From Povalibacter uvarum (GTDB lineage Bacteria > Pseudomonadota > Gammaproteobacteria > Steroidobacterales > Steroidobacteraceae), in the NCBI RefSeq assembly GCF_014202975.1, contig NZ_JACHHZ010000001.1:1240001-1304000 (forward strand): a stretch of 64,000 nucleotides of DNA, given 5' to 3'. Position numbers and translations under genes: made by a program. A model generated the notes under the pieces. It did no database searches and was not told where the DNA came from. It saw only the letters and a program-made list of their open reading frames with translations. The stretch's first letter is position 1, and every line of letters begins with the position of its first letter. Positions 6,535 through 64,000 of this stretch are shown here, piece by piece.

Positions 6535-6556
6535 GGCGGGAGTATAGATCGATCGC

Positions 6557-48236: not shown

Positions 48237-48806
48237 CTAGGTCGAGCAACGTGGAATGGCTTTCTTGAAGCGCAGCTCGCAAGCAAGTCGGCATGACCGG
48301 AGATGGGATCTCGCCTGAGTGAGATACTTCTCGATCGTGAGCTCGCTCAGGCGCAATCGCTGCGCAGCTTCGGCGTACGAGTAGCCCTCGATCTTGTGCG
48401 CGACGAGAACGGCGCGGTGAGTCCGCGGCAGCTGACTCAGGAATCGCTCGAGGTCATCCTCGATCGCAACGTGCTCGATTGCCTGGTCGGATGCATCGGG
48501 ACTCAGCAAGTCCTCGACGCTGTCGGGATCGACCGCCACTTCGCGCCGCGCCCTGGCAAAGAAGTCGGCCAGGACGTGATTTGCAATCGCGAAGAGATAG
48601 CGACGGGGATGCTCCAGCACCTGGCCTCTGTACGCACTCAGGAAGCGCGCACAGACTTCCTGAGTGAGATCTTCGGCATCCGACGACCGCAGATAGAGTC
48701 GACGCCCGAGGAAGCGGCGGATCGCCGCGTAGTGCTCGAGCACCACTGCATTGGCGCCGGGCAACCCGTGACCCGCTTCCTGGCCTGCCTCTCCAGACGT
48801 CTGCAT
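48237..48806 (-). CDS. ECF-type RNA polymerase sigma factor
   Basis: A 189-residue sigma factor. Region 2 is LEHYAAIRRFLGRRLYLRSSDAEDLTQEVCARFL with the promoter-melting segment YLFAIANHVLADFFAR. Region 4 is LSQLPRTHRAVLVAHKIEGYSYAEAAQRLRLSELTIEKYLTQAR. It is closest to FecI-like sigma factors, yet no FecR anti-sigma gene is adjacent. The start at 48806 lies 8 bases after the stop of the upstream small gene, implying one transcript. Its regulon is unknown; a TonB receptor gene lies 2.4 kb away. Confidence 0.9.
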   Translation of the reverse strand: MQTSGEAGQEAGHGLPGANAVVLEHYAAIRRFLGRRLYLRSSDAEDLTQEVCARFLSAYRGQVLEHPRRYLFAIANHVLADFFARARREVAVDPDSVEDLLSPDASDQAIEHVAIEDDLERFLSQLPRTHRAVLVAHKIEGYSYAEAAQRLRLSELTIEKYLTQARSHLRSCRLACELRFKKAIPRCST

Positions 48807-48813
48807 GGGCGAG

Positions 48814-49197
48814 CTACCGACGAACACCGGCCGATCGCCGACGCCGCGGCAACGCACCGGACCGCAACGCGCGGATCAGGGGTTCGAGACAGGCCGCGTC
48901 AAGACGATGAATCGCGTCCTTGATCAGTCTCAGCGCCATCGCCAGCACATCGGCGGATCCCGGTTGATGCCGGTTCTCCTGCTCTGCTGACATGAGCGCT
49001 GCGTGCAGACAACCGAGCATGGACTCGGCCTGGCTCAGCCGTCCTCGCTCGGTGTCGATCGCTTCCTGCAGCGAAACAGGCTCGACAGCTTCCGGCTGTG
49101 CGCCTGTCCCGATCGCGTCGGCGACCACTGTCTGTCCGTTTCCGTTCCGTCGAACCTTGCGGGCGCGCGTGCCCGTCGTAGACTGTGGCTTAGCCAT
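48814..49197 (-). CDS. small hypothetical protein, co-transcribed with the sigma factor
   Basis: A 127-residue basic protein. AGAGG lies just before the ATG. Both ends are Arg/Lys-rich; the centre is a helical hairpin (SLQEAIDTERGRLSQAESMLGCLHAALMS, VLAMALRLIKDAIHRLDAAC). The gene ends 8 bases before the sigma factor start. Being small and coupled to a sigma factor without an anti-sigma gene, it is a candidate regulator of that sigma factor (inference). The leader holds a strong hairpin. Confidence 0.65.
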   Translation of the reverse strand: MAKPQSTTGTRARKVRRNGNGQTVVADAIGTGAQPEAVEPVSLQEAIDTERGRLSQAESMLGCLHAALMSAEQENRHQPGSADVLAMALRLIKDAIHRLDAACLEPLIRALRSGALPRRRRSAGVRR

Positions 49198-49234
49198 CGT
49201 CTTACCTCTTGCTAGGTAGGGCTGTGGTTAGGCG

Positions 49235-49259
49235 CCGGCGGTGCTGTTATCACCGCCGG
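49235..49259 (-). promoter_or_regulatory. leader hairpin of the sigma-factor operon
   Basis: A perfect 9-base stem (CCGGCGGTG / CACCGCCGG) with a 7-base loop, 38 bases before the start codon at 49197. On the minus strand it is not followed by a U-run, so it looks like a 5' UTR structure rather than a terminator. Confidence 0.55.
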
Positions 49260-49344
49260 TTGCCGTCTCAAAGCACCGAACTAACCCAGAACTCTTCTGC
49301 CTGCGTTCCTTCGCATCGTCGCAACACGCACGGCAATGAATGAT

Positions 49345-49369
49345 GACTATAGTCCGTCGACCATTAGTC
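49345..49369. promoter_or_regulatory. C-box operator of the controller-like gene
   Basis: Two adjacent boxes: GACTATAGTC (49345-49354, perfect palindrome) and GACCATTAGTC (49359-49369), with 4 bases between. This matches the GACT-N(2-3)-AGTC double C-box of restriction-modification controller proteins (for example the Esp1396I operator) in sequence, order and spacing. It lies 25 bases before the ATG at 49395. Confidence 0.75.
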
Positions 49370-49394
49370 TGCAAGGCAGATATGGTGTGGCTAT

Positions 49395-49631
49395 ATGGCT
49401 ACACAACCGCTGCAGAATGCATTCGGAAAAGTGTTGCGCGAGTACCGGCTGAAGGCCGGCTTTTCGCAGGAAGGCCTCGCCGATGAAGCAGGCTGCGACC
49501 GCACGTTCATCGGGATGCTCGAGCGCGGTCAGCGCCAGCCGACGCTCGAGACATTGTTCAAACTGTCGAAGGCTTTGAACGTCGCCGCGGCGACGCTCGT
49601 TTCCCGGACGGCGTCCGAGTGGAAGGAATAG
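49395..49631 (+). CDS. C-protein-like XRE regulator (orphan restriction controller)
   Basis: A 78-residue, single-domain helix-turn-helix protein. Its size and sequence (VLREYRLKAGFSQEGLADEAGCDRTFIGMLERGQRQPTLETL) match the C.-protein family that times expression of type II restriction-modification systems. A two-part C-box lies directly upstream. No methyltransferase or endonuclease gene is within reach: downstream is a convergent acyl-CoA ligase, upstream the divergent small-protein/sigma-factor operon. It is either a relic of a lost system or a controller co-opted for the sigma-factor operon. Confidence 0.85.
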   Translation: MATQPLQNAFGKVLREYRLKAGFSQEGLADEAGCDRTFIGMLERGQRQPTLETLFKLSKALNVAAATLVSRTASEWKE

Positions 49632-49649
49632 CGACTCTTCGAGCTCGCT

Positions 49650-51266
49650 TCAGTTGACCCGACGCTCCCGTCCCGCCCAGTACGGCTCCCGCAGCACGCG
49701 GCGCAGTATCTTTCCTGAAGGCCCACGCGGCAGTTCCTTTACGAACTCGATCGACTTGGGTGCCTTGAACGCGGCAATCCGCGTTCGCGCGAAAGCGATG
49801 ATGTCCTGCGGATCCGGGCTCATCCCCGGTCTGGGCACGACGATCGCCTTGACGGCCTCGCCCCACTTCCCGTCGGGCACGCCGATGACCGCGACTTCCT
49901 GCACGGCTGGATGACCGTAGATCGCATTCTCGACTTCGGCGGGATAAATGTTCTCGGCACCCGACACGATCATGTCCTTGAACCGGTCGTGGATGTAGAG
50001 ATAGCCATCATCATCCAGGTAGCCCGCATCGCCGGTGCGCAACCAGCCATCCGCGCTGACGGTGTGCGCGGTCGCATAAGAGTTGTTCCAGTAGCCGACC
50101 ATGTTGGCCACCGAACGGGTTTCGACTTCACCGACCTGTCCGTTGGGCAGCGGCTCACGCGTCTCCGCATCGACGATGCGGATTTCCACGCCGGGCATGG
50201 GAATACCCGCAGCGCGCATCCGCGCATTGCCGGCTGGATCGTGATCCTGAGGCGGCAGGTAGACGATGGTGCCGCAGGTCTCCGTCATTCCATACTGCTG
50301 ACAGAAACCGCAACCGAAGACTTCGGTCGCTTCGCGCAGCAAGTCGAGCGCAATCGGCGACGCTCCATACAGGATGTGCCGCAAGCCGCTGTAGTCGATC
50401 TGGCGAACGCGAGGCTGAAGCAGCAGCATCTGCAGCGCCGTGGGAACGACGAACAGTCTGGAGACACCCTGATGCTCAATGGCGTCGAGCACCTGCGACG
50501 GAATGAACTCACGCTGGATGATCGAGCGGGCGCCATTGAAGAATCCGACGATTGCCCAGCCGATTCCCCCGATGTGCCCGACCGGCAGGGCCACGAGATT
50601 CACGTCGCCTTCGAGCCATTCGTTCCAATCCATGCGTGCGCGCATGCCTTCGCGGCGACCGCTCAGGAGGTTGCGATGACTGAGCATCGCTCCCTTGGGA
50701 TGACCTGTCGTGCCTGAGGTGTAGAGCTGCAGGGCAACGGCCGCGGGATCGACCCTGTTTGCGACTACACCCGCGGAAGCGGCGTCTCGCCATCGCCGGT
50801 AATCGGTCCAGCCGTCACGAGATTCCATCGTGATCAGCTGGCCGGTGCGAGGAACGACGCGGCGCAATCGATCGAGCTTGTCGAACTGATCCGAACCGAC
50901 GAAGAGCGACGTCACCTGCGCATCGTCGAGGATCTGCTGCACCTCATCGAAGGCGAGGCGCCATTGGACGGGAACGAGTACGGCCCCGATCTTGGCGACA
51001 CCGAACATCAGCTCGAAGACTTCGTCGGTGCCCTTGCCGACGAACGCAACGCGATCCCCCGCTTTGCATCCAGCGGCTGCGAGCGCGCTGGCAACCCTGT
51101 CGCTCCCGGCGTCGAGCGCCGCCCAGGACGTCTCACGACCCTCGAAGGACATGGCGACCGCGTCGGGACAGCGGCGCGCGTGATAGCGCACGATGTCGCC
51201 GATCGTCGGCATGGCATCGAAGTCGAGGATCAGAGGCTCGCCCCGGACGGTGGTTGTGCTGCTCAC
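49650..51266 (-). CDS. acyl-CoA ligase (AMP-forming)
   Basis: A 538-residue adenylate-forming CoA ligase. ATP loop: LYTSGTTGHPKGAMLSH; A5: QYGMTETCGTIVY; A7/A8: RTGDAGYLDDDGYLYIHDRFKDMIVSGAENIYPAEVE; catalytic Lys: GPSGKILRR. The GTG start at 51266 lies 2 bases after the TonB-receptor stop; an ATG at 51212 is an alternative. Tight linkage to the receptor suggests it activates the imported compound. It is distinct from the ligase at 38947-40608. Confidence 0.9.
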   Translation of the reverse strand: MSSTTTVRGEPLILDFDAMPTIGDIVRYHARRCPDAVAMSFEGRETSWAALDAGSDRVASALAAAGCKAGDRVAFVGKGTDEVFELMFGVAKIGAVLVPVQWRLAFDEVQQILDDAQVTSLFVGSDQFDKLDRLRRVVPRTGQLITMESRDGWTDYRRWRDAASAGVVANRVDPAAVALQLYTSGTTGHPKGAMLSHRNLLSGRREGMRARMDWNEWLEGDVNLVALPVGHIGGIGWAIVGFFNGARSIIQREFIPSQVLDAIEHQGVSRLFVVPTALQMLLLQPRVRQIDYSGLRHILYGASPIALDLLREATEVFGCGFCQQYGMTETCGTIVYLPPQDHDPAGNARMRAAGIPMPGVEIRIVDAETREPLPNGQVGEVETRSVANMVGYWNNSYATAHTVSADGWLRTGDAGYLDDDGYLYIHDRFKDMIVSGAENIYPAEVENAIYGHPAVQEVAVIGVPDGKWGEAVKAIVVPRPGMSPDPQDIIAFARTRIAAFKAPKSIEFVKELPRGPSGKILRRVLREPYWAGRERRVN

Positions 51267-51268
51267 TG

Positions 51269-53710
51269 CTAGAAGTTGATTCCAAAGGTCGCACCATACG
51301 TACGCGGCGGGCTCGGAAAGCGCACGACGACGTTGGCGTTGCTCGCGACGGCGCTCCAATAGTACTCGTCGAGCGCGTTGCGGGACCAGAGCGTGAACGA
51401 CCAGCGATCGTCGACGCTGCGCAATCCGATGCTCGCGTTCACCGTTGCGTACGACGGGATCTTGTAGAGATCGATGTCTTCGAAGATGGTGTTCGACTCG
51501 GTCTGGTAGCGGCCGTTCAGGGTCATCTGCAGCGCCAAGCCGCTGGTCACAGGACGGTCGTAGATGAAGGAAAGGCTGCCCTGCCATTCCGGGCTGTAGA
51601 TGAACTCGGCGCCGTCGTAGTTCTGGGGCTGTCCCGCCGCGTTGGTCCCGACGTAGTCCTCGACTTCGGTCTGCAGCCACAGTACGGCGCCTGCTATCGT
51701 GAAGCCGTCGACGGGCTGCCACGTGAGATCGGCATCCACTCCGTACGCGTTCGATTCCGGCAAGTTGTCGAGTCGCGTCAATGCCGTGTAGATCGGATCC
51801 GCGAAGTAGGTGCTGATCTGTTTGTCTTCATAGTCATAGAAGAAGACGGACAGATTGGCCTGCACGGTCTGATTCGCCAACGTCGACTTGGTCCCGATCT
51901 CGTAGGCCGTGAGCAACTCCTGCCTCACGGGTGCATTCTGCCTCGCGAGATTCGCCGCATTGATGGGCGTCGTCCCCGCTTTCGCTCCGCGAGAAACAGA
52001 CGTGTACAGAAGTGTGCCGTCGACCGGCGCCCAGTCGAGCGCGACCCGCCAGGACACGTTGTCCTCGTCGAGCGTCGAAACGATCTCACCGAATGAACCG
52101 GCGACGGGATCGAACGTATTGCACTGCCCTTCCGTGATGGGCGCCGCAAACACGCCGTACGCCTGGAAGTACAGCGCACGGTTGACGACATTCACGTTGG
52201 GAAGCATGTTGCCGTTGAAGTCGCGCGAGCAGCCGCGGTACTCCTGCTTGTCCTCGGTGTAGCGAACGCCGGTGGTGAGCTTCAGCGCATCGGTCAGCCG
52301 CCAGTCCGCATTGGCGAAGACGCTCCAAGTCGTCGTTTCGATGTGACCTTCATCGACATACGTCCGGAAAGCCTGTGACAGCTGAGCCGACGTATAGCCG
52401 CAGCAGTTGAAGGGCGTCGCCAGCAGCGGCTGCCCGACTGTGCGAATGAGCGAGACATTGGCGTTCTGGCCCAGCAACGTCCGGTTGCTGTCGAGGATCT
52501 TGTCGTTGGCGTAATACGCGCCGACGAGCCAGTTCATGCGTTCGGTCTCGCCTTCAAGATGGAAGTCCTCGGCGAGCGATTCGATCTTGCCGACGGTGTT
52601 CTGCAGCAGGATCTCGTACGGCGCTCCGCTCCAGTCCGACAGCGCATTGCGTTCGAACTCGTTGTAGCTCGTCAGCGAGACCAGCTTCATGCTGTCCGTC
52701 AGCTCCTGGTCGAGCCGCAGCTTGACCGCGGTGAACGGATTGTCTTCGCGCAGCGGTCCGCTGAGCCCGAGTCCCGTACCGATATCCGAAGCTCGTCTCG
52801 ACTCCGGCGCCCAGTCCGCATCTGTCGCGTCGCTGGGCTGATTCGCAGCGATGTAGCTGACGAGGCCCGGCGCATTGAATGGGCTGCTGGCAGTTGCCGG
52901 CGTGAAGCCGATTCCCTGCCCTGCTACCGTGTCTGCTTCGTTCTTCCACCACGTCGCCGACAGATCGATGTGCGTGCTGTCGGTGGGCTGCATCGCCAGC
53001 GAGCCCCGCACGCCGTAGCGTTTGATTTCGCCAAGCGTCTCGTCACGGCTATTGCTCTCCTGCCATCCCTCGCCGCTCTGCTCGCCGCGCACAGCGATGC
53101 GCATCTGCACCCGCTCTGAAAGCGGCCCAGAGACGTATCCGCCGGCGTTGACGGTCTCGTAGTTGCCGACGTCCGCGGTAACACCCGCCTGAAATTCGGA
53201 CGTTGGCTTCGCGGTCACGAAGTTGATGAGTCCAGCGGTCGTGTTGCGACCGTACAGCGTGCCCTGCGGGCCCTTCAGTACCTCGACCCGCTCGAGATCC
53301 ATGAGCGGCCCGGTGTTCATGATCGGATACGCATACGCGACTTCGTCGACATACGTGCCGACAGTCGAGGTCGCGGAAAGATTGATGGTGTTGAATCCGA
53401 TGCCGCGCAGCGTGTACGTGGGCACGCCCTGATAACTCTGCGACACCGTGAAGCTCGGCACGACCGTCGTCAGGTCTTTGACATCATCGACACGCAGCGC
53501 CTCGAGTGCCGCGGCACCGAATGCCTGGATTGATAGCCCGACATCATTGATCGATTCCGCGCGACGCTGCGCAGTGACGATCACTTCCTCCAGACCACCC
53601 GTATTTTCGACCTCTTGAGCGTGGGCAGTCACGATGCCGCCGATTGCAGCGACACAGGCCAGTGGCACTGCCAGTGACACAGCGGTCGATGAGAATCTCT
53701 TTGAAACCAT
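51269..53710 (-). CDS. TonB-dependent outer-membrane receptor
   Basis: An 813-residue receptor with signal peptide (cleavage after AHAQ). A TonB-box-like EEVIVTAQRRAES is followed by the plug domain (LTTVVPSFTVSQSYQGVPTYTLRGIG, LMDLERVEVLKGPQGTLYGRNTTAGLINF) and a beta-barrel ending in the aromatic RTYGATFGINF. This is the sphingomonad/steroid-degrader type that takes up hydrophobic organic compounds. Its start has a G-run before ATG at 53710. It is followed directly by the acyl-CoA ligase. Confidence 0.95.
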   Translation of the reverse strand: MVSKRFSSTAVSLAVPLACVAAIGGIVTAHAQEVENTGGLEEVIVTAQRRAESINDVGLSIQAFGAAALEALRVDDVKDLTTVVPSFTVSQSYQGVPTYTLRGIGFNTINLSATSTVGTYVDEVAYAYPIMNTGPLMDLERVEVLKGPQGTLYGRNTTAGLINFVTAKPTSEFQAGVTADVGNYETVNAGGYVSGPLSERVQMRIAVRGEQSGEGWQESNSRDETLGEIKRYGVRGSLAMQPTDSTHIDLSATWWKNEADTVAGQGIGFTPATASSPFNAPGLVSYIAANQPSDATDADWAPESRRASDIGTGLGLSGPLREDNPFTAVKLRLDQELTDSMKLVSLTSYNEFERNALSDWSGAPYEILLQNTVGKIESLAEDFHLEGETERMNWLVGAYYANDKILDSNRTLLGQNANVSLIRTVGQPLLATPFNCCGYTSAQLSQAFRTYVDEGHIETTTWSVFANADWRLTDALKLTTGVRYTEDKQEYRGCSRDFNGNMLPNVNVVNRALYFQAYGVFAAPITEGQCNTFDPVAGSFGEIVSTLDEDNVSWRVALDWAPVDGTLLYTSVSRGAKAGTTPINAANLARQNAPVRQELLTAYEIGTKSTLANQTVQANLSVFFYDYEDKQISTYFADPIYTALTRLDNLPESNAYGVDADLTWQPVDGFTIAGAVLWLQTEVEDYVGTNAAGQPQNYDGAEFIYSPEWQGSLSFIYDRPVTSGLALQMTLNGRYQTESNTIFEDIDLYKIPSYATVNASIGLRSVDDRWSFTLWSRNALDEYYWSAVASNANVVVRFPSPPRTYGATFGINF

Positions 53711-53842
53711 GTTCCCCCCCAGGAAGTGCGTCGTCCGATGATCGAGGCGGACCTGGGCTCTGACCGGGTCAGTGCCGGCAAGCCCTTGTTTTGTGAGTAT
53801 CCGTTTGCACGATTGCACAGCCCGAGTCGGGCTGAATAGCTG

Positions 53843-54745
53843 TTAGTTCTGATAGTGCCGCGTCGCTCCCGTAGGCAGATCGCCTGAAGCGCCGGGACCC
53901 CGGTAGAGATGGTTGGCGGGCAATCCCATTCGCCGGCTCGCCAGCGTCGGTGGGAAGTTGGGGATCGGCAGCCGCTCCAGCGCGGCGCCCAGATTCTTCA
54001 ACAGGCTCCGCTCCCATCGCCGCAGCTTCCATGCCGCGCCGTGCAGCGCCAGGCGCTCCCTCAGCCATTCAGGCAGGAGATCGACGCCAGCGCGCAGCAT
54101 CATCGATTGGAGCGGCCGCAGGAACCATGGCACGGCCGGAGTCCGCTTCACGATACCCAGGAACTGTTGAACGATCGGATGCGCCTCGAGATGCGGCTGC
54201 AACTTCTCGAACAGCTGGCGCTGCTCAGCCTGCGATTGCGGCGCCCCATGGGCGAGAAACAGCCTGGCCGAGGCAACGGACTCCTTGTAGAAGCGGTCTC
54301 GCTGTACGTCCGTCAGTGGCCGGCAATACGCCGCATACGCCTCCATGAAACCGTAGCTCACCGTGCACTGCACCCAGTCCAGAAGTTCTGGATCGTTCGC
54401 CCGGTACGGTGTCCCTTTCGGTGTTTTCCCTTCGACGCGCGCATGCATGGCAACGACTCCACGGATGAGCTTCTCCGCCACCTCGACGGGCGCGTAAACG
54501 CTCACGTGTGCCATGAGCCCCGTCCGCTCCATGCGGGTCAGCGGATCTGTCGGGAATATCGAGTGCTCCCAGACACCCGTGCGCACCCGCTCCTCCGCCA
54601 GCTCCAGCAATACGGCGGTAATCCCGCCAACGAAGAGCGCGACGGGATTCTTGAAGACGTGCCAGTGCAGCGAGTCCTGGCTGTACAGGGCCGGCGCGCC
54701 CTGGGGGTGCAGGAAATCCACTTTGGGCAAGGGGCGTTTGGACAT
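53843..54745 (-). CDS. MpaB/Lcp-family (DUF2236) oxygenase
   Basis: A 300-residue protein of the DUF2236 family, which includes the fungal MpaB oxygenase and the bacterial latex-clearing protein Lcp. Visible features are HVFKNPVALFVGGITAVLLELAEERVR, WEHSIFPTDPLTRMERT, and MHARVEGKTPKGTPYRANDPELLDWVQ. The R-x3-T signature (Arg71, Thr75) and His101 lie about where Lcp places its conserved Arg/Thr and haem-ligand His, as I recall the Lcp structure. No signal peptide is seen, unlike secreted Lcp. It lies 132 bases before the TonB receptor start and divergent from the LuxR gene. Confidence 0.85.
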   Translation of the reverse strand: MSKRPLPKVDFLHPQGAPALYSQDSLHWHVFKNPVALFVGGITAVLLELAEERVRTGVWEHSIFPTDPLTRMERTGLMAHVSVYAPVEVAEKLIRGVVAMHARVEGKTPKGTPYRANDPELLDWVQCTVSYGFMEAYAAYCRPLTDVQRDRFYKESVASARLFLAHGAPQSQAEQRQLFEKLQPHLEAHPIVQQFLGIVKRTPAVPWFLRPLQSMMLRAGVDLLPEWLRERLALHGAAWKLRRWERSLLKNLGAALERLPIPNFPPTLASRRMGLPANHLYRGPGASGDLPTGATRHYQN

Positions 54746-54853
54746 GGCTTCTCGCGCTGCTTCTCGTCGTGGAGCCATCCTTTGCGCCCCCACCGGCCCT
54801 TGCAAGCTATCGGATCAGATAGGGGTAGGGATTTTCAGCGACCCGCCTGGAAT

Positions 54854-54869
54854 TCGTCCGAACGGACGA
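54854..54869. promoter_or_regulatory. dyad operator candidate between mpaB and luxR genes
   Basis: TCGTCCG and CGGACGA are exact inverted arms around a 2-base centre. It lies 109 bases before the MpaB-family gene and 117 before the LuxR-type gene, the expected place for a shared regulator site. The rest of the 54746-54985 gap shows only a minor repeated CTGACTGTTAGGCTGACC. Confidence 0.5.
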
Positions 54870-54985
54870 CGTTCCGCCCGGCCTGACTGTTAGGCTGACC
54901 TTCAATATAGAGAGACTCCGCCAGGTGCACAGCCGGGCCGGGGGTCCGACCCAGTTTGGGACTGCATCGCGTCGGGGGACGTGCA

Positions 54986-55735
54986 ATGAGCGCGCTGCCA
55001 CAAAGCTCGTGCGAGCTGGGAATCATCGAGATCGCACAGGAGATCACTGCCATAGGCAGAACGATCGGCCTGCCCATGATTGCGACATGTGCCGACATCA
55101 GCAGCGCACGACCCGTGACCATCGGCGACAACACGCCCGTCGCCACGCTGTTCGAGTTTGCCAACGATGCGCATGAGTACTGGCTGCAGAGCGACCTCGC
55201 GCTCGGGAACGCCATCATCACGATCATTCGCTGGACCGCCGAGCCGTTCTACTACGATCGCGGCACTATCGGCGGCTGGCGACCCTTGCGCATTGCCCCG
55301 GAGCTCGAGCGCGAAAAGGACCGGATGACGCTGAGCATTCGCGGCGCGATCGTCGCCCCCATTCATCTGCCGGGAGGCGTCGTCGGCGGCGTCGTGTGGG
55401 CGACAGACGAACCTCATGGCCGGGTACCCGACATCTTCGACAAGCACGCGGCAAGACTGCATGTACTTGCGTTGCGGTTCATATCGGCTTGCAACGCTGC
55501 GATGTACGGTGAACCCAGCATCCGTTCCTACCGGCTGACGCGACGCGAAGTTCAGTGCCTGAAGCTCGCTGCCGCGGGCAAGACCGACGAGGAAATCTCG
55601 ATCATCCTGGATGTCTCCATCCCGACGGTGCGGTTCCATCTCAAGAAAGCCGGCTGCAAGCTCGGCGAGAATGGCCGCATGCGCATCGTTCATCACGCAG
55701 CGGCCCTCGGCTTCGTCAGCATGCGGCTGCAGTAG
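54986..55735 (+). CDS. LuxR-type transcriptional regulator
   Basis: A 249-residue regulator with an N-terminal sensing domain of about 180 residues (no clear acyl-homoserine-lactone signature) and a C-terminal GerE helix-turn-helix: RLTRREVQCLKLAAAGKTDEEISIILDVSIPTVRFHLKKAG. The start at 54986 has GGGGGAC upstream. It lies divergent from the MpaB-family gene and 149 bases ahead of the molybdo-hydroxylase genes, so it likely controls both arms of the locus. Confidence 0.9.
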   Translation: MSALPQSSCELGIIEIAQEITAIGRTIGLPMIATCADISSARPVTIGDNTPVATLFEFANDAHEYWLQSDLALGNAIITIIRWTAEPFYYDRGTIGGWRPLRIAPELEREKDRMTLSIRGAIVAPIHLPGGVVGGVVWATDEPHGRVPDIFDKHAARLHVLALRFISACNAAMYGEPSIRSYRLTRREVQCLKLAAAGKTDEEISIILDVSIPTVRFHLKKAGCKLGENGRMRIVHHAAALGFVSMRLQ

Positions 55736-55884
55736 TCGGCGCGTTCGACCAAAGCATTCTATTCGTGTCGCTGTTACCACGGTCGCACCTTCCGGACGCG
55801 ACGCACAGCTGTTGATCTTGATAGCAGTCAGAGCGCTGATGTGTCGCTAGGATCCGGCCCGCGCGATGGGATTCCGGAGGGCTC

Positions 55885-58101
55885 ATGGCAGGACGCTCGG
55901 ATCGAACCGCAGTCACGACCGACGACGAGAGCGTCGCGACGATAACAAGCCCCAGCCGACGGTCGTTTCTTCAATACTCGCTGGCGGGCTCCGCAACACT
56001 GGTGATGGGCAGCACCTTCGTTGGCGACGAAGCCGCTGCTTCGATCTCGTTGCCGGAACTCGGTGAGATTCTCGACTTCCCCGACGTGATCGCGCTTGCC
56101 GAGGCTCCTTACGCCAGCAATCTCCTGCTCGAAATCACCACAGGCAACCGCGTGCGCTTCGAGCTGCCCCGGCTCGACAAGGGCCAGGGAATCGCCACGG
56201 CGTTCGCGATGCTGATCGCGGACGAACTCGATTCCGACTACGAGCGTACCGACGTCACACTGAGCGATCGTCGCGCGGATCGCCCTTTCTCCATCACCGG
56301 TAACTCGGCCGCAATCCGTGCGCTGTGGGACCCCGTCCGCAGTCTCTGTGCCCATGCGCGAGCACGCCTCGTGACGGCAGCAGCGCTCCGCTGGAGTGTC
56401 AGAGCAAGCAGCCTGCGAACATCGCAATCAAGCGTCATCGCGACCGACGGCCGCATCGCGACGTACGGCGAACTCAGTGCGGAAGCTGCGCGAGTAGCGA
56501 TTCCGCTGATCCCGGTCACGCCGAAGCCCGTCAGCCAGTACAAAATCGTCGGCACGAAGCGGGCACGCAAGAACGCTCGCGCGATCGTTACAGGCACGGA
56601 AAAGTACACGCTGGACACCAGTGTCGCGGGTGCGATGCCAACGGTCGTTGCGCGAGCGCCGGACATCGGTGGATCTGTGCTCTCCTGGAATGGTGCTGTC
56701 GCTGCCTCCATGCCAGGTGTCATCGGCATCGTACCGATTCCAAACGGTATTGCCGTCACGGCACAAACGTTCAAACAGGCATTCGATGCGCGCGATGCGC
56801 TTCAGATCAGCTGGCGCCCTGGACCAGTTCGCGGCCAGTCCGACGCGGGCATGCGCAACACACTACGGCAGATCAACACGCCTCTGACGCCAGTACTGCC
56901 GCTCGTCGGCTCACTCAGCGCGACGTTCGAGTTTCCGTATCTCGCCCACGCAATGATGGAAGTGATGTCGGCGGTCGCCGATGTGCGCGATCAGTCCGCG
57001 GAGATCTGGTACGCGTCGCAGTCACCGAACTTTGTCGCTGCACAGGTCGCTCAGTCGACTGGCATCCCCGCATCCAAAGTGAAGATCCACATTCCCTTCG
57101 CGGGCGGATCTTTCGGGCGGCGCTTGTTCGGCGAAGCGGCTGTCGAAGCCGCACTCGTCTCGAAGGCGTTGCGCATGCCGGTGAAGCTGATGTGGACGCG
57201 CAACGATGACATGCGACACGGCCGCTTCCGCCCGCTATCCCGTTGCGACATCCGTGCATCCTGGCTCGCCGGCGCGACGCTTTCGTACGAACACCACATC
57301 GCGGCCGCACGCAACGACTTCAGGCATGGCCTCGGCGACGCCCTGACTGCCGCCGGCGTCAACGTCGTTCCGGACCTGTTCAACCAGGTCGGCTTCATCA
57401 CGATGATCTCATTGCCCTATCGCTTCGGGAACACGAGCAGCAAGCTCGTCGAGAAGGAACTCGGTGTTCCTACCGCCAGCTGGCGCTCCGTGTACTCGGG
57501 CGTCATGACGGTCGCCAATGAAATCTTCATCGATGAGATGGCGCGCATCCGACGATACGATGAAGTCGACTTCCGCCTGCGCCATCTGGACTCAGCGGCT
57601 GCGGAGCGTTGCCTGCGGTATGTCGCTGCTGCAGGTGCGTGGGGACGCACGATGCCGCGCGGACAGGCACAGGGCGTCGCCGTCCACGCGGAGTATCGCT
57701 CGGCAGTCGCATACCTCGTTGAGATCGACACCACAGGCCCGGAGCCGCGCCTGCTGAAGGCGTACTGCGCCGTCGACGTTGGTGTCCCAGTCAACGTCAG
57801 CGGACTGCAGGCGCAGATGCAAGGGTCATTGATCGACGGGTGGTCGGTGATGTTTCGGGCCGGCAATCACGTCGACGATGGCCGGATTCGCGAAGGCAGT
57901 TTCGGCGATTTCCACTGGGCGCGCATGCGTCACGCGCCCGTCACGACACAAGTACACGTATTCCCCGCTGAAGGCAGCAACGCGGAACCCGGTGGCGCCG
58001 GCGAGCTAGGTATCACGGCTGCCGCCGCCGCATGCGTGAACGCGTATGCGCGTGCGACGAAAACACAGCCACGCCGGTTTCCGGTCCAGGAGTACGACTG
58101 A
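55885..58101 (+). CDS. Tat-exported molybdenum hydroxylase, large subunit (IorB/Oxi-like)
   Basis: A 738-residue xanthine-oxidase-family large subunit similar to the isoquinoline 1-oxidoreductase beta type. A twin-arginine signal (SPSRRSFLQ, residues 22-30) indicates periplasmic location. Mo-cofactor segments are IPFAGGSFGRRLFGEAAVEAALVS and the C-terminal EPGGAGELGITAAAAA with the catalytic Glu at about 707. It oxidises aldehydes or N-heterocycles using water. Related OxiAB enzymes oxidise the aldehydes made by rubber cleavage in Streptomyces. It overlaps the small-subunit gene. Confidence 0.92.
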   Translation: MAGRSDRTAVTTDDESVATITSPSRRSFLQYSLAGSATLVMGSTFVGDEAAASISLPELGEILDFPDVIALAEAPYASNLLLEITTGNRVRFELPRLDKGQGIATAFAMLIADELDSDYERTDVTLSDRRADRPFSITGNSAAIRALWDPVRSLCAHARARLVTAAALRWSVRASSLRTSQSSVIATDGRIATYGELSAEAARVAIPLIPVTPKPVSQYKIVGTKRARKNARAIVTGTEKYTLDTSVAGAMPTVVARAPDIGGSVLSWNGAVAASMPGVIGIVPIPNGIAVTAQTFKQAFDARDALQISWRPGPVRGQSDAGMRNTLRQINTPLTPVLPLVGSLSATFEFPYLAHAMMEVMSAVADVRDQSAEIWYASQSPNFVAAQVAQSTGIPASKVKIHIPFAGGSFGRRLFGEAAVEAALVSKALRMPVKLMWTRNDDMRHGRFRPLSRCDIRASWLAGATLSYEHHIAAARNDFRHGLGDALTAAGVNVVPDLFNQVGFITMISLPYRFGNTSSKLVEKELGVPTASWRSVYSGVMTVANEIFIDEMARIRRYDEVDFRLRHLDSAAAERCLRYVAAAGAWGRTMPRGQAQGVAVHAEYRSAVAYLVEIDTTGPEPRLLKAYCAVDVGVPVNVSGLQAQMQGSLIDGWSVMFRAGNHVDDGRIREGSFGDFHWARMRHAPVTTQVHVFPAEGSNAEPGGAGELGITAAAAACVNAYARATKTQPRRFPVQEYD

Positions 58102-58571
58102 TGCCCCAGTACGTGTTGAAGGTGAACGGCGACGAGCATGTCATCGACGCACCTAACGACATGCCGCTCCTGTACGTGCTGCGTGACCGCCTTGGAATCA
58201 CAGGGCCGAAGTACGGTTGCGGTGTCGGCATCTGCGGCGCCTGCACGAGCCATGTAGGCAACAGTGTCGCCCGGCCCTGCATCGTTCGCATCGACAGCGT
58301 CGGCGCGCAGGAAGTCACCACCATCGAAGGACTCGCAACGGGTGACGTGCTCCATCCAGTCCAGCAGGCATGGATCGATGAGGATGTCGCGCAATGCGGC
58401 TTCTGTCAGCCCGGCCAGATCATGACGGCTGTCGCCCTGCTCGCGCAGATCGCGAATCCGACGGATGCGGACATCGACGCCGCCATGTCCGAGAACGTCT
58501 GCCGCTGCGGCACTTATGTGCGCATCCGGGCCGCGATCAAGCGTGCCGCGGCAGCACTGCAGCAAGCGTGA
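58101..58571 (+). CDS. 2Fe-2S subunit of the molybdenum hydroxylase (IorA/Oxi-like)
   Basis: A 156-residue electron-transfer subunit with two 2Fe-2S clusters. The plant-type cluster is GCGVGICGACTSH plus a fourth Cys in RPC. The helical-domain cluster is CGFCQPGQ plus CRCG. It has no signal peptide, so it is presumably exported by hitch-hiking on the Tat-targeted large subunit. Its ATG shares an A with the large-subunit stop (TGATG). The usual gene order of this family is small then large; here it is large then small. Confidence 0.95.
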   Translation: MPQYVLKVNGDEHVIDAPNDMPLLYVLRDRLGITGPKYGCGVGICGACTSHVGNSVARPCIVRIDSVGAQEVTTIEGLATGDVLHPVQQAWIDEDVAQCGFCQPGQIMTAVALLAQIANPTDADIDAAMSENVCRCGTYVRIRAAIKRAAAALQQA

Positions 58572-58650
58572 GCGCGAGCTTCGCGATCCGCACCGTTTCG
58601 AACAACAACAACAATGTTTCATCACCAAAGCACAACCAAGGGGGTATCAG

Positions 58651-60696
58651 ATGAGCTCGAAGGACCATCGAGCGCGTTACAGACTGCAACGCGCTTCAGC
58701 TTTCATCGTCCTGGGACTTGCAGCCAGTCTCGAGGTCAGTGCGCAGGGCGCACCGGACCTCATCAAGAGCAGCCGTGGCGGCTCTCAACTCTGGGACTAC
58801 TGCGCAGGTAAGACCGACGCCACCGTATTGCCCGCGGATCCGCGAACGCTCGTGAAGGCCGGTATCAGCACCGGCCGCGCGGTCGCTTTCAACGCGTTCT
58901 GGAAGGATTGCCACACCGATCCGGTGGCAGTGCAGGAAGCGGGGCACCCGAAGACGTGCGGCGAGCTACGTCAGCGCTTCTATCGCGGTGACGGCCTGCT
59001 CGACACGGGTTCCCGCACTGTCGCCGCGCTCTTCACAGGAAACGATCCGACGACAGCCTCTTCACTGTTCGGCGCAGCTACGCTGACAGCCGCGCAGTAC
59101 AACTCGTTGTGGCGCAGCTGGGACGGCTTCCTGCTTCGTCCCGACAACTTCGATGATCTCGTCGCGGAGCGGTACGGCTCCGTCTTCGGACCGGGACGCA
59201 ATCCGTATCCCAAACCCTTCGAAGATCCGAACCGTACGAACGGCGGCACCGGTCGCTTGCCGGAGATGTTCACTCAGCTTCGCAATCCTGACGGATCGTG
59301 GAGCGGGCGAATCGGCGTTACCTGTCACGCGTGTCACAGCGGCGCGGCGAACGGAACGCAGACCCCGGGCAGCGGCAGCAGTCTCCAGGATCTTCACATG
59401 CTCCTGCGCGATGCTGTACCGCTCGGCTATCTGCCATCGCTCGCGTCACTCGCGAACCTGACGCGCACTCGCGGCACGAACAACGCGAGCGACATCAACC
59501 TCGCTTTCCTGTTTCCCGACGAAGGCCTGATCCCGCTCGATGTTGCGCTCGGCGTGGTCGCATCGGGTTCGACAGCCTCCATGGACACACCAGCCTGGTG
59601 GAACATGGGCCATCGTCCGGTGAAGTTCGTCGATGGCGTCTTTCCGATGGATGCGCCGCGCGTCGACATGGTCTTCTACACACCGGCGTTCGGCCTCTTC
59701 GGCTCGCTCGGCGGGCCATTGTCAGAAGCCGGTCAGGACTGGATGCGCGCGCACGGTCCGGACGCGAATACATGGGTCGAGTCTCTGAAGTCGCCGGTGT
59801 ATCCGGGAACGATCGATACGGCGCTCGCGGAACAAGGAGCTGTGCTGTTCCATACGCTCAATCTCTGGGCGTCGGGCCGCAACAATCCCGTGCCCAAGCC
59901 GAACGAAGGCAATGGTTCGTGCGCAAGCTGCCACGGAGCCTACGCACCGCGATACGTGAATGATCCCACGTTCCTCGCATCACCGGCGCTCGAGGGAATG
60001 GCCTCATACATCACTCCGCAGCGGATCATCCAGACCGACATCGTGCGACAGCGGACGAACAACGAGGCAGTGCAGATTGCTGGTGCGAACAACTTCTTTG
60101 GATATCCGACCACCGCCGGTACCGCGAACGATTGCGGCCCGCAGAATCGCGCGGATCTGCGCGGCAATCGCGAGCTGGGCTATCTCGCCCCGCCGCTCTA
60201 TGGTGTATGGGCAACTGCGCCGTACATGCACAACGGCTCGGTGCCGAACGTGTGGGAAATCCTGAAGCCGTCGGATCGCAAGCCGCTGTGGAAGCGCAAG
60301 TCCAAAGCGCCGCGCTGGGATCAGACCGGCCGGGCGATCATGGGATACGACACGAGCATGGCGGCATACGACACAGGAAAGCTGGGCTGGAAGTATGACG
60401 TCATCCAGTGCAGGAACCCCTCGCTCCTGGATCCCCTGCCGTCACCGTACCTGCGCTGCGATCCGAACGACGATCTGCTGCTGTCGTGGTACGACAGGCT
60501 GCTTACGGATCTCTATGGCAACGTGATCCTTGCCTGGAACGTGCTGTTCCCGCCGACGATCACGAATACGGACATCGAGAACCGCAAGATCTACAACAGC
60601 TACATGTTCGGCCAGGGGAACGGTGGCCACACCTTCAATTCGGTGCTCACCGACAACGAGCGCAAGGCGCTCGTCGAGTACATGAAGACTCTGTAG
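58651..60696 (+). CDS. RoxA-like dihaem c-type oxygenase (rubber oxygenase family)
   Basis: A 681-residue secreted dihaem protein. The signal peptide is about residues 1-32 (ends VSAQG). Haem sites are CHACH (Cys225-His229) and CASCH (Cys424-His428), 199 residues apart. RoxA from strain 35Y (now Steroidobacter cummioxidans), as I recall, has 678 residues and its CxxCH motifs also start 199 apart (191, 390). A MauG/peroxidase-type segment LYGVWATAPYMHNGSVPNVWE follows, and tryptophans in DTPAWWNMGHRPVKF are near the first haem. RoxA cleaves polyisoprene with oxygen. An ordinary dihaem peroxidase would be about half this length. AGGGGG precedes the start. Confidence 0.85.
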   Translation: MSSKDHRARYRLQRASAFIVLGLAASLEVSAQGAPDLIKSSRGGSQLWDYCAGKTDATVLPADPRTLVKAGISTGRAVAFNAFWKDCHTDPVAVQEAGHPKTCGELRQRFYRGDGLLDTGSRTVAALFTGNDPTTASSLFGAATLTAAQYNSLWRSWDGFLLRPDNFDDLVAERYGSVFGPGRNPYPKPFEDPNRTNGGTGRLPEMFTQLRNPDGSWSGRIGVTCHACHSGAANGTQTPGSGSSLQDLHMLLRDAVPLGYLPSLASLANLTRTRGTNNASDINLAFLFPDEGLIPLDVALGVVASGSTASMDTPAWWNMGHRPVKFVDGVFPMDAPRVDMVFYTPAFGLFGSLGGPLSEAGQDWMRAHGPDANTWVESLKSPVYPGTIDTALAEQGAVLFHTLNLWASGRNNPVPKPNEGNGSCASCHGAYAPRYVNDPTFLASPALEGMASYITPQRIIQTDIVRQRTNNEAVQIAGANNFFGYPTTAGTANDCGPQNRADLRGNRELGYLAPPLYGVWATAPYMHNGSVPNVWEILKPSDRKPLWKRKSKAPRWDQTGRAIMGYDTSMAAYDTGKLGWKYDVIQCRNPSLLDPLPSPYLRCDPNDDLLLSWYDRLLTDLYGNVILAWNVLFPPTITNTDIENRKIYNSYMFGQGNGGHTFNSVLTDNERKALVEYMKTL

Positions 60697-60746
60697 TCCC
60701 TGGTCAGTGGGACGGGTGCGTGACAGCACTCGTCCCACCTGCACGT

Positions 60747-60772
60747 CCGTCATCCCCGCGAAAGCGGGGCAG
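60747..60772. repeat. REP-like palindrome, family A
   Basis: CCGTCATCCCCGCGAAAGCG plus six bases: a single hairpin unit related to the repeat at 4818-4888. It forms the last codons and the stop of the transporter gene and lies between convergent genes. Confidence 0.75.
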
Positions 60773-61979
60773 TCGCTTCGATCGGGGAGGCTTTCCTCTC
60801 CCTGAACACCACCGCGAAGATGACGGCAGTCGCGAAAGCGAGCCCGGCAGGAATGAGCCAGATCGTCTTCCAGTCGTGCGCACCGGCGGCCAGCGTGTTC
60901 GCGACGTAAACGGAATTCGCGAACAGCGCGCCGATCGCCATGCCGACTCCCAGCGTGATCAGCGCCAGGAACGATTGCGCCCGGGCCCTGGTTTCCGGTC
61001 CGAACGTACGATCGACATAGATCTGGCCGGCGACGAAGAAGAAGTCATAGCAGATGCCATGCAGCAGGATGCCGACGAGCAGCACGGGCATCACCGGGCC
61101 GAGACTCGTCACGCCGTACGCAAACATCACGTAACGAACCGCCCAGGCGATCATACCGATGACCATCACCCATTTGATGCCCAGGCGCAGAAGCAGGAGC
61201 GGCAGCAGGAGCAAGAATGCCATCTCTGACATCTGGCCCAGCGTCTGAATCGCTGCCGCACGATCGACACCCGATTCGACGAGGTAGGTGTTGGTGTACG
61301 CGTAGTAGAACGACAGCGGAATCGTCGTCATCAGCGAGGCGACGATGAAGATCACGAACAGCCTGCCGCCGCCTTTCAGCGCGTCGAGGCCGAGCAATCG
61401 GACGGGATTGATCGGCTCCCACACCGCACGCGGCGGAGTGCTCGGCAGAGTGAAACTGTAGAGCCCGTAGAACAGCGACGCGCCCGCCGAGATCAGGATC
61501 GGGATATTGGTCTGTTCGAGCCGCGCGAAGCCAATGCCAAGACCCGCCACGATCCAGCCCAGGGTGCCGAAGACACGAATCGTCGGAAATTCCTTCGTCG
61601 TGTCACTGGAGGCGTTGAAGGCGATCGTCGTCGAGAGCGGCAGCGTCGGCATGTAGAAGATCATGTAGACGAGCACCGCGAGCACGACCTGCTGCGGATC
61701 CGAGCCTGGCCCCAGCGTCGACACGTAGAAGAGGCAGGCCGCGCCGCAGAGATGCAGCACTCCCATGACTTTCTCCGCCGAGAAATAGCGATCGGCGATC
61801 ACCCCGATGAACAGGGGCGCGAGGATCGCGGCATAGCCCTGCGTCGCATATACCTGACCGATGATGTCGTCGAAGCCGTTGGTCGCCAGCAGCGTGCCCA
61901 GCGGCACCCACCAGGCGCCCCAGACGAAGTACTGCACGAACATCATCAGCGACAGGCGAAACCGTGTATTCGCGTTCAT
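60750..61979 (-). CDS. MFS transporter, nucleoside/sugar H+ symporter type (NupG-like)
   Basis: A 409-residue carrier with about 12 membrane helices, of the Nuc_H_symport group. N terminus: RLSLMMFVQYFVWGAWWVPLGT; loop motifs: PLFIGVIADRYFSAEKVMG and FPTIRVFGTLGWIVAGL. Such carriers are often linked to DUF1080 and Gfo/Idh genes and import sugars or their oxidised forms. The last few codons fall in a REP-like hairpin, so the true C terminus may have been changed. Confidence 0.9.
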   Translation of the reverse strand: MNANTRFRLSLMMFVQYFVWGAWWVPLGTLLATNGFDDIIGQVYATQGYAAILAPLFIGVIADRYFSAEKVMGVLHLCGAACLFYVSTLGPGSDPQQVVLAVLVYMIFYMPTLPLSTTIAFNASSDTTKEFPTIRVFGTLGWIVAGLGIGFARLEQTNIPILISAGASLFYGLYSFTLPSTPPRAVWEPINPVRLLGLDALKGGGRLFVIFIVASLMTTIPLSFYYAYTNTYLVESGVDRAAAIQTLGQMSEMAFLLLLPLLLLRLGIKWVMVIGMIAWAVRYVMFAYGVTSLGPVMPVLLVGILLHGICYDFFFVAGQIYVDRTFGPETRARAQSFLALITLGVGMAIGALFANSVYVANTLAAGAHDWKTIWLIPAGLAFATAVIFAVVFRERKASPIEATAPLSRG

Positions 61980-61997
61980 TGTTCTCGTTCTCCCGAA

Positions 61998-62636
61998 TCA
62001 ACGCCGTACGCTGACTTCCCTGAACCAGACGACGTCTTTGTCGCCGTGATTCTGCAGGCCGATGTACCCTGACTTCTGACGCGGACCGCGCTCCGGCTCG
62101 TAGGGTTTGGTGCGCTCCGGTACCGCATCGCCTTCGCGAAAATCCGTCACGACCGCGCCGTTGACCGTCACGACGGTTCGATCGCCGTCGAGCTTGATCT
62201 CCATCGTGTTCCACTCACGCACTTGCGGTTTCGCCTTCGCTTTGGTGAAGGAGTACAGGACGCCCGTGCGGTGGAAATCGTCCTCGCTGTCGTCGATCTG
62301 GACTTCGTAACCCTTGTTCACCGGCATCCACGGCTCACCCGGTTCCGTCGGGATGCGGATGAACACACCCGCGTTCCCGCCTCCCTGAGCCTGGGCACGG
62401 TAGACGATGCGCAATGTCGTATCGCCGAACTTCTCACGCGTGAACCAAAGCAGCCCCATGCCGCCTTCGGTCCGGAGCGTGCCGTCTTCGATGACGAAGC
62501 GGCCCGGCCCCACGTGCGTCCAGCCCTCGAGATCCTTGCCATTGAAGAGCGGGCGCCATTGGCCCGTATCGTGTGCGGATGAAGTCATGGCGGATCCCAT
62601 GATGAGAACAACCACCAACGCGCAGCGCGGGAACAT
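61998..62636 (-). CDS. secreted DUF1080 (3-keto-disaccharide hydrolase) protein
   Basis: A 212-residue protein with a signal peptide (MFPRCALVVVLIMGSAMTSSAH) and a concanavalin-like DUF1080 domain (WRPLFNGKDLEGWTHVG, GNAGVFIRIP, KGYEVQIDDS, WNTMEIKLDG, SGYIGLQNHG). Members hydrolyse 3-keto-glycosides or bind sugars in the periplasm. The ATG at 62636 is preferred; a TTG 8 codons earlier (62660) is also in frame. It lies between the transporter and the oxidoreductase gene. Confidence 0.9.
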   Translation of the reverse strand: MFPRCALVVVLIMGSAMTSSAHDTGQWRPLFNGKDLEGWTHVGPGRFVIEDGTLRTEGGMGLLWFTREKFGDTTLRIVYRAQAQGGGNAGVFIRIPTEPGEPWMPVNKGYEVQIDDSEDDFHRTGVLYSFTKAKAKPQVREWNTMEIKLDGDRTVVTVNGAVVTDFREGDAVPERTKPYEPERGPRQKSGYIGLQNHGDKDVVWFREVSVRR

Positions 62637-62660
62637 GTTCAAGTCGAACTCCTTGCGCAA

Positions 62661-63809
62661 CTACAAAGAGACCCAAGCCGCATTTCGCTGGCTGGACGAA
62701 ACGGCTGCCTGAATGAACTGAACACCGCGCACACCGTCAGCGACAGTGGGCACGAGCAACGCACCGCCGCTCGCGGCCCTGCCTTCCTTCGACGCGACGA
62801 TGAGGTCAGCTGCGTCGGAATAAATCTGCGCGAACGCTTCGATGTAGCCCTCGGGATGGCCCGACGGCACACGAACCGCCGCCTTGGCCCAGGCGCCCAG
62901 ACCCGGGCCGCCGCGCGTGAGAATTCTCGGCTGTTCGCCGACGGGTGCGAACCGCAACTGGTTCGGAGTTTCCTGTGACCATTCGAGACCCGCCTTCGCA
63001 CCGTACACGCGAATGCGCAAGCCGTTCTCGTTGCCGGGCGCGACCTGGCTGGCCCAGAGCGAAGCCCGTGCGCCGTTCGCGAAGCGCATCAGCATCTGGC
63101 CGTTGTCATCGAGCCGGCGCCCCGGCACTGCGATCGAAAGATCCGCTGCCAGTTGCGTGACACGCATGCCCGTCATGAACTCTGTCAGATGAAACGCGTG
63201 AGTCCCGATATCGCCGATCGCACCGGCCATGCCGCTGCGCTCGGGATCGACGCGCCAAGTTGCCTGCTTGTTGCCGGTAGCCTCGACGGGCGTCGCGAGC
63301 CAGTCCTGCGCGTACTCTGTCTGCACGACTCGGATATCGCCCAGCTCGCCGCTCGCGATCATCTCCTTCGCCTGGCGCACCAGCGGATAGCCGCTGTAGT
63401 TGTACGTCACGGCGAATACTCGCTTCGTCTGCCCGACGAGGTGCGAAAGCTCTTCTGCATGTGCAAGCGTCGTGGTCAGCGGCTTGTCGCAGATCACGTG
63501 AAAGCCGGCTTCAAGGCAGCGCTTCGCCGGGTCGTAGTGCAGGTGGTTGGGCGTTACGACAGCGACGACGTCGACGCGATCCGGGCGATTCCGCTCCGTC
63601 CGCAACATGTCATCGAGCGTCGCGTAACAACGCTCTGGCGCGAGGCGCAGGTCAGCACCGCTGTCGCGTGAACGTTGAGGATCGGACGAAAACACGCCCC
63701 CGACCAGCTCGTAGCGATCATCCAGGCGCGCAGCCATGCGATGCACGGCACCGATGAAGGCGCCGCGACCACCGCCGATCATCGCAAGTCTCAATCTCGA
63801 TGCAGCCAC
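62661..63809 (-). CDS. Gfo/Idh/MocA-family oxidoreductase
   Basis: A 382-residue NAD(P)-dependent sugar dehydrogenase. The nucleotide loop is [20 protein letters not shown], and [31 protein letters not shown] holds the EKP-like catalytic Lys motif (DKP here). [19 protein letters not shown] provides the substrate region. The GTG start at 63809 overlaps the stop of the upstream epimerase gene (TAGTGG). Related enzymes oxidise the C3 of glycosides, which fits the neighbouring DUF1080 gene. Confidence 0.93.
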
Positions 63810-64000
63810 TACTCGAGCCCCAGCATCCGACGGTTTGCGGCCGCATCCGTGCCGGCGCTTGCGAAGTCGTCGAACGCTTTGTCGGCCGTGCGAATCAGAT
63901 GGCGCTGAATGAACGGCGCACCTTCGGCCGCGCCCTGCTCCGGATGCTTGATGCAGCATTCCCATTCCAGCACCGCCCAGCCGTCATAGCCGTACTGCGT
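63809..64000 (-). CDS. sugar phosphate isomerase/epimerase (3' part)
   Basis: The last 63 residues of a TIM-barrel protein of the xylose isomerase-like (AP_endonuc_2) family, running off the window edge. The segment YGYDGWAVLEWECCIKHPEQ followed by GAAEGAPFI is a strong signature of the members found with Gfo/Idh dehydrogenases. The C-terminal tail FDDFASAGTDAAANRRMLGLE is typical. It is the first visible gene of the sugar operon. Confidence 0.85.
   Translation of the reverse strand, partial: TQYGYDGWAVLEWECCIKHPEQGAAEGAPFIQRHLIRTADKAFDDFASAGTDAAANRRMLGLE

Follow-up and report, generated by a model that had tools for sequence, protein, structure and literature searches.

Two kinds of described systems are among those closest to the locus reported here. 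The RoxB enzymes of Steroidobacter cummioxidans 35Y and Rhizobacter gummiphilus NS21 (LatA1) cleave polyisoprene (PMC6311187, PMC10837239), and a roxA-roxB double deletion of 35Y has been named (PMC6311187). In systems of the second kind, a gene for the oxidative cleaver Lcp stands before oxiB and oxiA, as in the lcp1-lcp2-oxiB-oxiA order of Actinoplanes OR16 (PMC7413915), with OxiAB as the presumed oxidase of the aldehydes derived from rubber. For Gram-negative degraders, passages of one paper state that the genes for aldehyde oxidation 'have not yet been characterized' (PMC9782182), and those of another that this step 'remains unknown' in 35Y (PMC5979037). Here, we describe a seven-gene cluster of Povalibacter uvarum, a member of the Steroidobacteraceae. 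The window, i.e., the whole stretch of DNA that was analysed, comprises 64,000 nucleotides of a 6.32-Mb genome (G000:C1:1240001-1304000). Open reading frames (ORFs) and matches to Pfam and NCBIfam define two divergent operons at positions 49650–60696 of this window, which probably form a RoxB-centred unit for the utilisation of polyisoprene of the natural-rubber type, working by the full stepwise model set out below. The features are as follows (CoA, coenzyme A; Tat, twin-arginine translocation).

49650–51212, minus strand: acyl-CoA ligase with AMP-binding and AMP-binding_C domains, last in its operon (PF00501, 273 bits; NF004837, 582 bits, cut-off 476; start inferred)
51269–53710, minus strand: TonB-dependent receptor (PF07715 and PF00593; start inferred; Sec-type signal peptide judged by eye)
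53843–54745, minus strand: MpaB-type DUF2236 protein of 300 residues without a signal peptide, presumed haem-b oxygenase (PF09995, 162 bits, cut-off 23)
54746–54955, no strand: intergenic region, presumed from the gene layout to be the promoter region of both operons
54956–55735, plus strand: LuxR-type (GerE) regulator (PF00196, 44.6 bits; alternative start possible at 54986)
55885–58101, plus strand: OxiB-like molybdopterin large subunit (PF02738 and PF20256; twin-arginine motif SRRSFLQ, by eye)
58101–58571, plus strand: OxiA-like [2Fe-2S] small subunit (PF01799 and PF00111; one-base overlap with the stop of the oxiB-like gene)
58651–60696, plus strand: RoxB, dihaem c rubber dioxygenase (NF050034, 1084 bits, cut-off 900; Sec-type signal peptide by eye)

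The minus-strand operon reads DUF2236 protein, TonB receptor and CoA ligase, and the plus-strand operon reads LuxR regulator, molybdenum large subunit, small subunit and RoxB, with 79 bp between the end of the small-subunit gene and roxB. A scan of 49000–61200 for the sigma-70 consensus returned no sites. The first-pass annotation of this DNA had described a divergon with these same components, and Pfam recovered all of them, including both subunits of the Tat-type hydroxylase pair.

RoxB and the OxiAB-like hydroxylase

The dihaem protein had been taken as RoxA-like, whereas its sequence assigns it to RoxB proper. The NCBIfam equivalog model for RoxB gave 1084 bits, compared with 589 bits for RoxC and 456 bits for RoxA (cut-off 1000). 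As described at first, the protein is 681 residues long, and its only two CxxCH motifs lie 199 residues apart, at residues 225 and 424. Its haem sites are CHACH (H229) and CASCH (H428), with H660 as the second axial histidine, and it carries the MauG motif PYMH527NGSVP. At the two diagnostic positions, F342 stands at the place of F317 and V327, a valine and not a tryptophan, at that of W302. An identity as RoxA or RoxC was rejected on the model scores and the residues. The features printed for RoxB of 35Y are CHACH196, CASCH395, H627, PYMH494NGSVP, F309 and V294 (PMC10837239); all positions of the window protein equal these numbers plus 33 and are thus in precursor numbering. The two genes are alike in their length of 2046 bp, haem sites, MauG motif and Phe and Val positions, and the counts of Phe, Tyr and Trp in the mature proteins are 24/24/17 for the window RoxB versus 23/24/17 for that of 35Y.

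The di-haem cytochrome c peroxidase model gave 97 bits, below its cut-off of 150, and the sole solved relative found was the RoxA structure 4b2n (E 2.5e-115). In a quick tree of 53 Rox rows, with very long outgroup branches and ORFs longer than 820 residues cut to their last 820, the protein fell inside the 28-row RoxB set (Shimodaira–Hasegawa-like approximate likelihood ratio test, 100), apart from RoxA and not grouped with the peroxidase-like rows. Its nearest neighbours were the proteins of Steroidobacter agaridevorans (L007), Peristeroidobacter agariperforans (L008) and Minicystis rosea; G429 and G430 are the same-genus RoxB genomes. The position of the Steroidobacteraceae RoxB as sister to the myxobacterial Minicystis RoxB (L009) in this tree suggests a cross-phylum transfer.

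RoxB homologues also occur in loci of Alcanivorax, Microbulbifer and Zhongshania. These genera are mostly marine, and rubber is scarce in the sea. The true substrate might accordingly be another long isoprenoid, such as squalene, polyprenols, carotenoids or gutta-percha, with rubber cleaved only incidentally. This is unlikely, given that the RoxB enzymes of 35Y and NS21 cleave polyisoprene (PMC6311187, PMC10837239), that the diagnostic residues are kept here and that the same genome holds RoxA together with beta-oxidation genes.

The second enzyme of the plus-strand operon is a two-subunit molybdenum hydroxylase without a flavin adenine dinucleotide subunit. In a plasmid collection, the best matches of its large subunit were from Streptomyces chartreusis (46% identity) and Nonomuraea gerenzanensis (39%), after which identity dropped to about 32%. 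The Nonomuraea locus (L091) has the order lcp-lcp-oxiB-oxiA. Both of its Lcp proteins begin with a twin-arginine motif, contain the Lcp signature KTRLVHAAVRHLL and are 60% identical to each other; the one at 6400–7611, which was scanned against Pfam, matched PF09995 and TAT_signal. Nonomuraea OxiB was used as the OxiB reference, standing in for that of Streptomyces K30. In a tree of 33 large subunits, with N-termini trimmed so that at most 45–60 residues remained before the match, a clade of 13 rows separated at 100/100 from the 20 others. It comprises the large subunits of the window, L007, L008, S. chartreusis, Nonomuraea (OxiB) and Variovorax and seven copies from Myxococcia; the order within the clade is not firm, and Nonomuraea and Variovorax form a flagged long-branch pair. 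The first-pass claim of an Oxi-like enzyme in a polyisoprenoid-cleavage locus is thus borne out: on sequence grounds, the molybdo-hydroxylase is assigned to the OxiB clade, and a reverse search with Nonomuraea OxiB retrieved the window gene at 453 bits, with the next own-genome match at 214 bits (15 further matching stretches).

Consistent with this assignment, E707 (GAGELG) of the large subunit, presumably the expected catalytic glutamate, is invariant in 10 rows. The small subunit is 52% identical to Nonomuraea OxiA and 65–70% identical to those of S. chartreusis and the seven myxobacterial copies. The large-then-small gene order is common to the window and Nonomuraea, whereas five annotated outgroup loci (L094, L095, L096, L098 and L101) have the small subunit first. 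It is improbable that the enzyme is a generic aldehyde or N-heterocycle oxidoreductase of the IorAB type, unrelated to rubber aldehydes. Its best solved relative, 8gy3 (E 7.6e-37), bears no more specific name than 'large subunit of aldehyde dehydrogenase', and OxiB-clade copies apart from rox and lcp exist; on the other side stand the twofold bit-score margin of the reverse search, the fully supported clade with an lcp-linked OxiB and the apparent operon shared with RoxB. One group of these separate copies (47–49% identity) is present in each of the seven genomes from Myxococcus, Pyxidicoccus, Archangium and Hyalangium that belong to the set of 34 RoxB genomes (L107–L113). In the stretches covered, these copies are not neighbours of RoxB, which shows that linkage is no general rule. 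The S. chartreusis and Variovorax copies were considered as lcp-linked and rejected on the basis of their neighbourhoods and PF09995 searches of the records.

Conservation of the gene set

For comparison, 34 other RoxB-type loci (L007–L040), the long matches among 65 loci, were searched with the window proteins by tblastn. The full seven-gene set was found in only two of them, L007 and L008, at 73–89% identity (by gene: CoA ligase, 72–74%; TonB receptor, 75–78%; LuxR regulator, 80–81%). In both, the order is rearranged to ligase-DUF2236, LuxR, TonB receptor and large-small-RoxB. The seven genes are together in all three RoxB genomes, including that of P. uvarum, among 217 genomes of the family. 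An OxiB-clade large subunit occurs in exactly those three genomes (E<=1e-110, a threshold chosen after earlier results had been seen). The DUF2236 protein occurs in eight of the 217, i.e., the three RoxB genomes and five of another genus, whose proteins are 45–50% identical to that of the window, one with an internal stop.

The surroundings are not shared. Among 88 window ORFs of at least 100 residues (38–64 kb), none beyond the seven had a counterpart in L007, L008, L167 or L168, which reach about 10–11 kb past either end; the exception is a second TonB receptor (27–28% identity) near the clusters of the relatives. The gene set has been kept together despite the change in order, which makes it a real unit and more than chance. 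Since the three Steroidobacteraceae genomes represent one lineage, this is one observation kept over time and not three.

Adjacent genes were also considered as members. The MFS, 3-keto-disaccharide hydrolase-like and GFO/IDH genes (60750–63965) were rejected, with no homologues in the 34 RoxB loci and their flanks (E<=1e-5, at least 60 residues), and an ECF-type sigma-factor-like ORF (48237–48857, minus strand, by eye), just outside the cluster, was rejected as its regulator, with no match in L007, L008, L167 or L168.

The DUF2236 protein and its linkage to Rox genes

The DUF2236 protein, for which NCBIfam has no model, had been described as Lcp/MpaB-like. The part of that description that stands is the fold: its best structural match is t-anethole oxygenase (8s1j; 11% identity over the aligned part), Lcp also matches, and R71, T75 and H101 are the equivalents of R164, T168 and H198 of Lcp, so that the R-x3-T pattern noted at first is present as R71-x3-T75. 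At the level of sequence, phmmer against solved structures returned nothing related, and a profile search of the same structures ranked Lcp first, but weakly (E 0.37–0.44).

The Lcp part of the description fell away. The protein has 300 residues versus about 400 in Lcp and no Tat signal (by eye), and at the place of the 13-residue Lcp signature KTRLVHAAVRHLL (PMC8235351) it has GVVAMHARVEGKTPK. Its haem ligands are kept in part: the proximal histidine is present, and arginine now replaces the distal ligand Lys167. In the DUF2236 tree, likewise built with trimmed N-termini and from which three wrong ORFs (L078, L079 and L081) were left out, it belongs to a clade of its own, with Nonomuraea Lcp far outside. 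Lcp identity was rejected on these grounds, and hardly any weight can be given to the idea that a bona fide Lcp supplies this locus with two extracellular rubber oxygenases. Of the proposed union of Rox and Lcp families in one divergon, what remains is Rox plus an MpaB-family oxygenase. The protein resembles t-anethole oxygenase, the nitrile rubber oxygenase Nro1 and fungal MpaB in fold, R/T/H residues and length of about 300 residues, and differs from them in its own clade and its linkage to Rox genes. For Nro1, a part in the cleavage of nitrile rubber has been described (PMC12724181).

This linkage is seen beyond the Steroidobacteraceae. In a Polyangia metagenome-assembled genome (MAG; L029), a DUF2236 protein with 62% identity is encoded less than 500 bp from, and divergently to, a RoxB gene (994 bits, over the cut-off), and the cluster continues with genes for a CoA-ligase, an SDR protein, an APH-type kinase, an acyl-CoA dehydrogenase, a FadB-like protein and a thiolase (by eye). 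In a Salinisphaerales MAG (G329:C39), a DUF2236 protein with 49% identity lies between RoxB/RoxC-like genes. Of the three Rox-like genes there, the full-length one scored 847 bits for RoxB and 764 for RoxC, below both cut-offs (900 each), and one was scanned in part. The same contig holds two TonB receptors, two acyl-CoA dehydrogenases and a FabK/nitronate-monooxygenase-like gene 74% identical to one beside the RoxA gene of P. uvarum. A DUF2236-clade gene is thus found near Rox genes in three lineages, namely Steroidobacteraceae, Polyangia and Salinisphaerales. Trees of RoxB and DUF2236 differ on the nearest kin of L029 (Nannocystis versus Steroidobacteraceae), which suggests separate histories; simple joint inheritance of the two genes as a single block is therefore improbable. 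In three Alcanivorax loci (L023, L024 and L027), RoxB has more distant DUF2236 genes in its vicinity, a weak linkage because those genomes carry 9–15 PF09995 genes.

Several further loci were observed alongside. The Salinisphaerales stretches L159 (G329:C39:18000-37999) and L160, which also hold CaiB-like and TetR genes (by eye), look like an isoprenoid-degradation island. The Solimonas MAG BWSM_106 (G299; L153 and L010) combines an Lcp-grouping DUF2236 protein with nine RoxA-model matches in one Gram-negative genome, and L010 has three Rox genes in tandem. In the Steroidobacteraceae genome G366, where no RoxB was found, a DUF2236-clade gene lies near a gene whose product resembles, at its N-terminus and by eye, a cis-prenyltransferase of the UppS type (L171, 8337–10488).

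The gene of this last genome bears on the possibility that RoxB and OxiAB are the rubber pair, and that the operon of the DUF2236 protein, TonB receptor and ligase is merely a neighbour serving another lipid or terpenoid. Such a division would fit the opposite strands of the two half-units and the five of 214 RoxB-free family genomes that have DUF2236-clade genes, that of L171 among them. We regard it as rather doubtful, since both halves stay joined through rearrangement in three genomes and the DUF2236 gene recurs beside RoxB in the Polyangia MAG and among Rox genes in the Salinisphaerales MAG.

Proposed pathway and comparison with known systems

The genome of P. uvarum also encodes RoxA on another contig (1282 bits). 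The RoxA locus (C5:391982-403939; L082, 5983–17940) includes genes for an APH-type kinase, an enoyl-CoA hydratase, a thiolase-like protein, a FabK-like protein, FadB, an acyl-CoA dehydrogenase and a CoA-ligase. All but the ligase were found in both genus-mates L131 and L132, and the ligase in one of them, as the stretches end there. This kinase has a solved relative in the kinase domain of ACAD11 (8v3v, E 8.8e-31) and is 61% identical to the kinase of the Polyangia RoxB cluster. These matches hint that the methyl-ketone end of rubber fragments is handled by a 4-hydroxyacyl-CoA (levulinate-type) route; the one paper found to mention levulinyl-CoA and rubber together concerns, by its title, a cyanobacterial polyester.

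The model starts from what sequence and fold establish, i.e., the identity of RoxB, the OxiB-clade membership, the MpaB/Lcp fold and the conservation of the set. Exported RoxB would cut poly(cis-1,4-isoprene) endo-wise into oligomers of C20 and longer with aldehyde and methyl-ketone ends. The TonB receptor would move these oligomers across the outer membrane, and in the periplasm the Tat-exported OxiAB-type hydroxylase would turn their aldehyde ends into carboxylates. The CoA ligase would activate the acids for beta-oxidation, the genes for which sit with RoxA elsewhere. Lacking an export signal, the DUF2236 protein may act in the cytoplasm or at the membrane, where it would cleave C=C bonds of oligoisoprenoids that have been imported. 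The LuxR protein would control the gene set. Substrates, locations, regulation and the part of the receptor in uptake are inferred, as is, most of all, the function of the DUF2236 protein, which is the weakest step of the mechanism.

Several points weigh against this model. Beta-oxidation could in principle process oligomers without the DUF2236 protein, which has Arg74 where Lcp has its Lys167 ligand, and both TonB receptors and CoA ligases form broad families. Phylogenetically, the three Steroidobacteraceae genomes count as a single sample, and the two molybdenum subunits adjoin RoxB in only two of the 34 other RoxB loci, both from this family. Seven of the 12 DUF2236-clade rows belong to RoxB genomes that showed no linkage (draft contigs in several), and the DUF2236-clade genes of the five RoxB-free family genomes have no shared neighbours. 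No Rox or DUF2236 match was found within 8–20 kb around the seven Myxococcia OxiB-like copies (L124–L130), S. chartreusis L090 or Variovorax L099. In the seven Myxococcia genomes, no PF09995 match shares a contig with the OxiB-like gene; the single PF09995 gene of the S. chartreusis record is distant from its OxiB-clade gene, and the Variovorax record has none. Finally, according to the literature, RoxB cleaves rubber on its own.

RoxB, OxiAB and MpaB-type oxygenases are each already known. In searches of open-licence papers, which did not cover Birke 2017 (RoxB) or Kasai 2017 (latA), no description of an OxiAB orthologue and an MpaB-type oxygenase in one roxB unit was found. The novelty claimed at first holds for a unit of Rox, an MpaB-family oxygenase and an Oxi-like enzyme, and not for Rox with Lcp. 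The cluster newly provides a conserved candidate for the Gram-negative rubber-aldehyde oxidising enzyme, along with candidates for a second oxygenase and for the receptor that takes up products at the outer membrane. If the model is true, two unrelated rubber oxygenases are served by one and the same module for aldehyde oxidation, and the part still missing from the middle of the rubber pathway in Gram-negatives can be tested by gene removal. For a large, little-studied family of haem proteins, the link with MpaB-type genes also points to possible substrates.

The closest known enzymes are RoxB of S. cummioxidans 35Y and LatA1 of R. gummiphilus NS21, to which only the gene neighbourhood is added here. 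A pairing of an MpaB-family gene with a rubber oxygenase gene likewise occurs in Streptomyces sp. AC04842, where mpaB lies downstream of lcp1; this is an actinobacterium with Lcp as the partner, and the excerpted report assigns no role to mpaB (PMC9108482). Tentatively, and with markedly less confidence than in the pathway itself, the window may hold a Gram-negative counterpart of lcp-oxiBA built around the unrelated RoxB, in which polyisoprene is cut outside by a dihaem c enzyme and again inside by a haem b enzyme of the MpaB family, with OxiAB acting between them; at least three lineages would then have acquired or retained a pairing of Rox with MpaB. Like the lcp-oxiB-oxiA operons of Streptomyces K30 and Actinoplanes OR16, the window combines an oxidative cleaver with a Tat-type OxiB followed by OxiA. 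It differs from them in that the cleaver is RoxB, a c-type dihaem protein, and not Lcp, that a LuxR regulator takes the place of TetR and that a TonB receptor is present where uptake by Mce has been proposed in actinobacteria.

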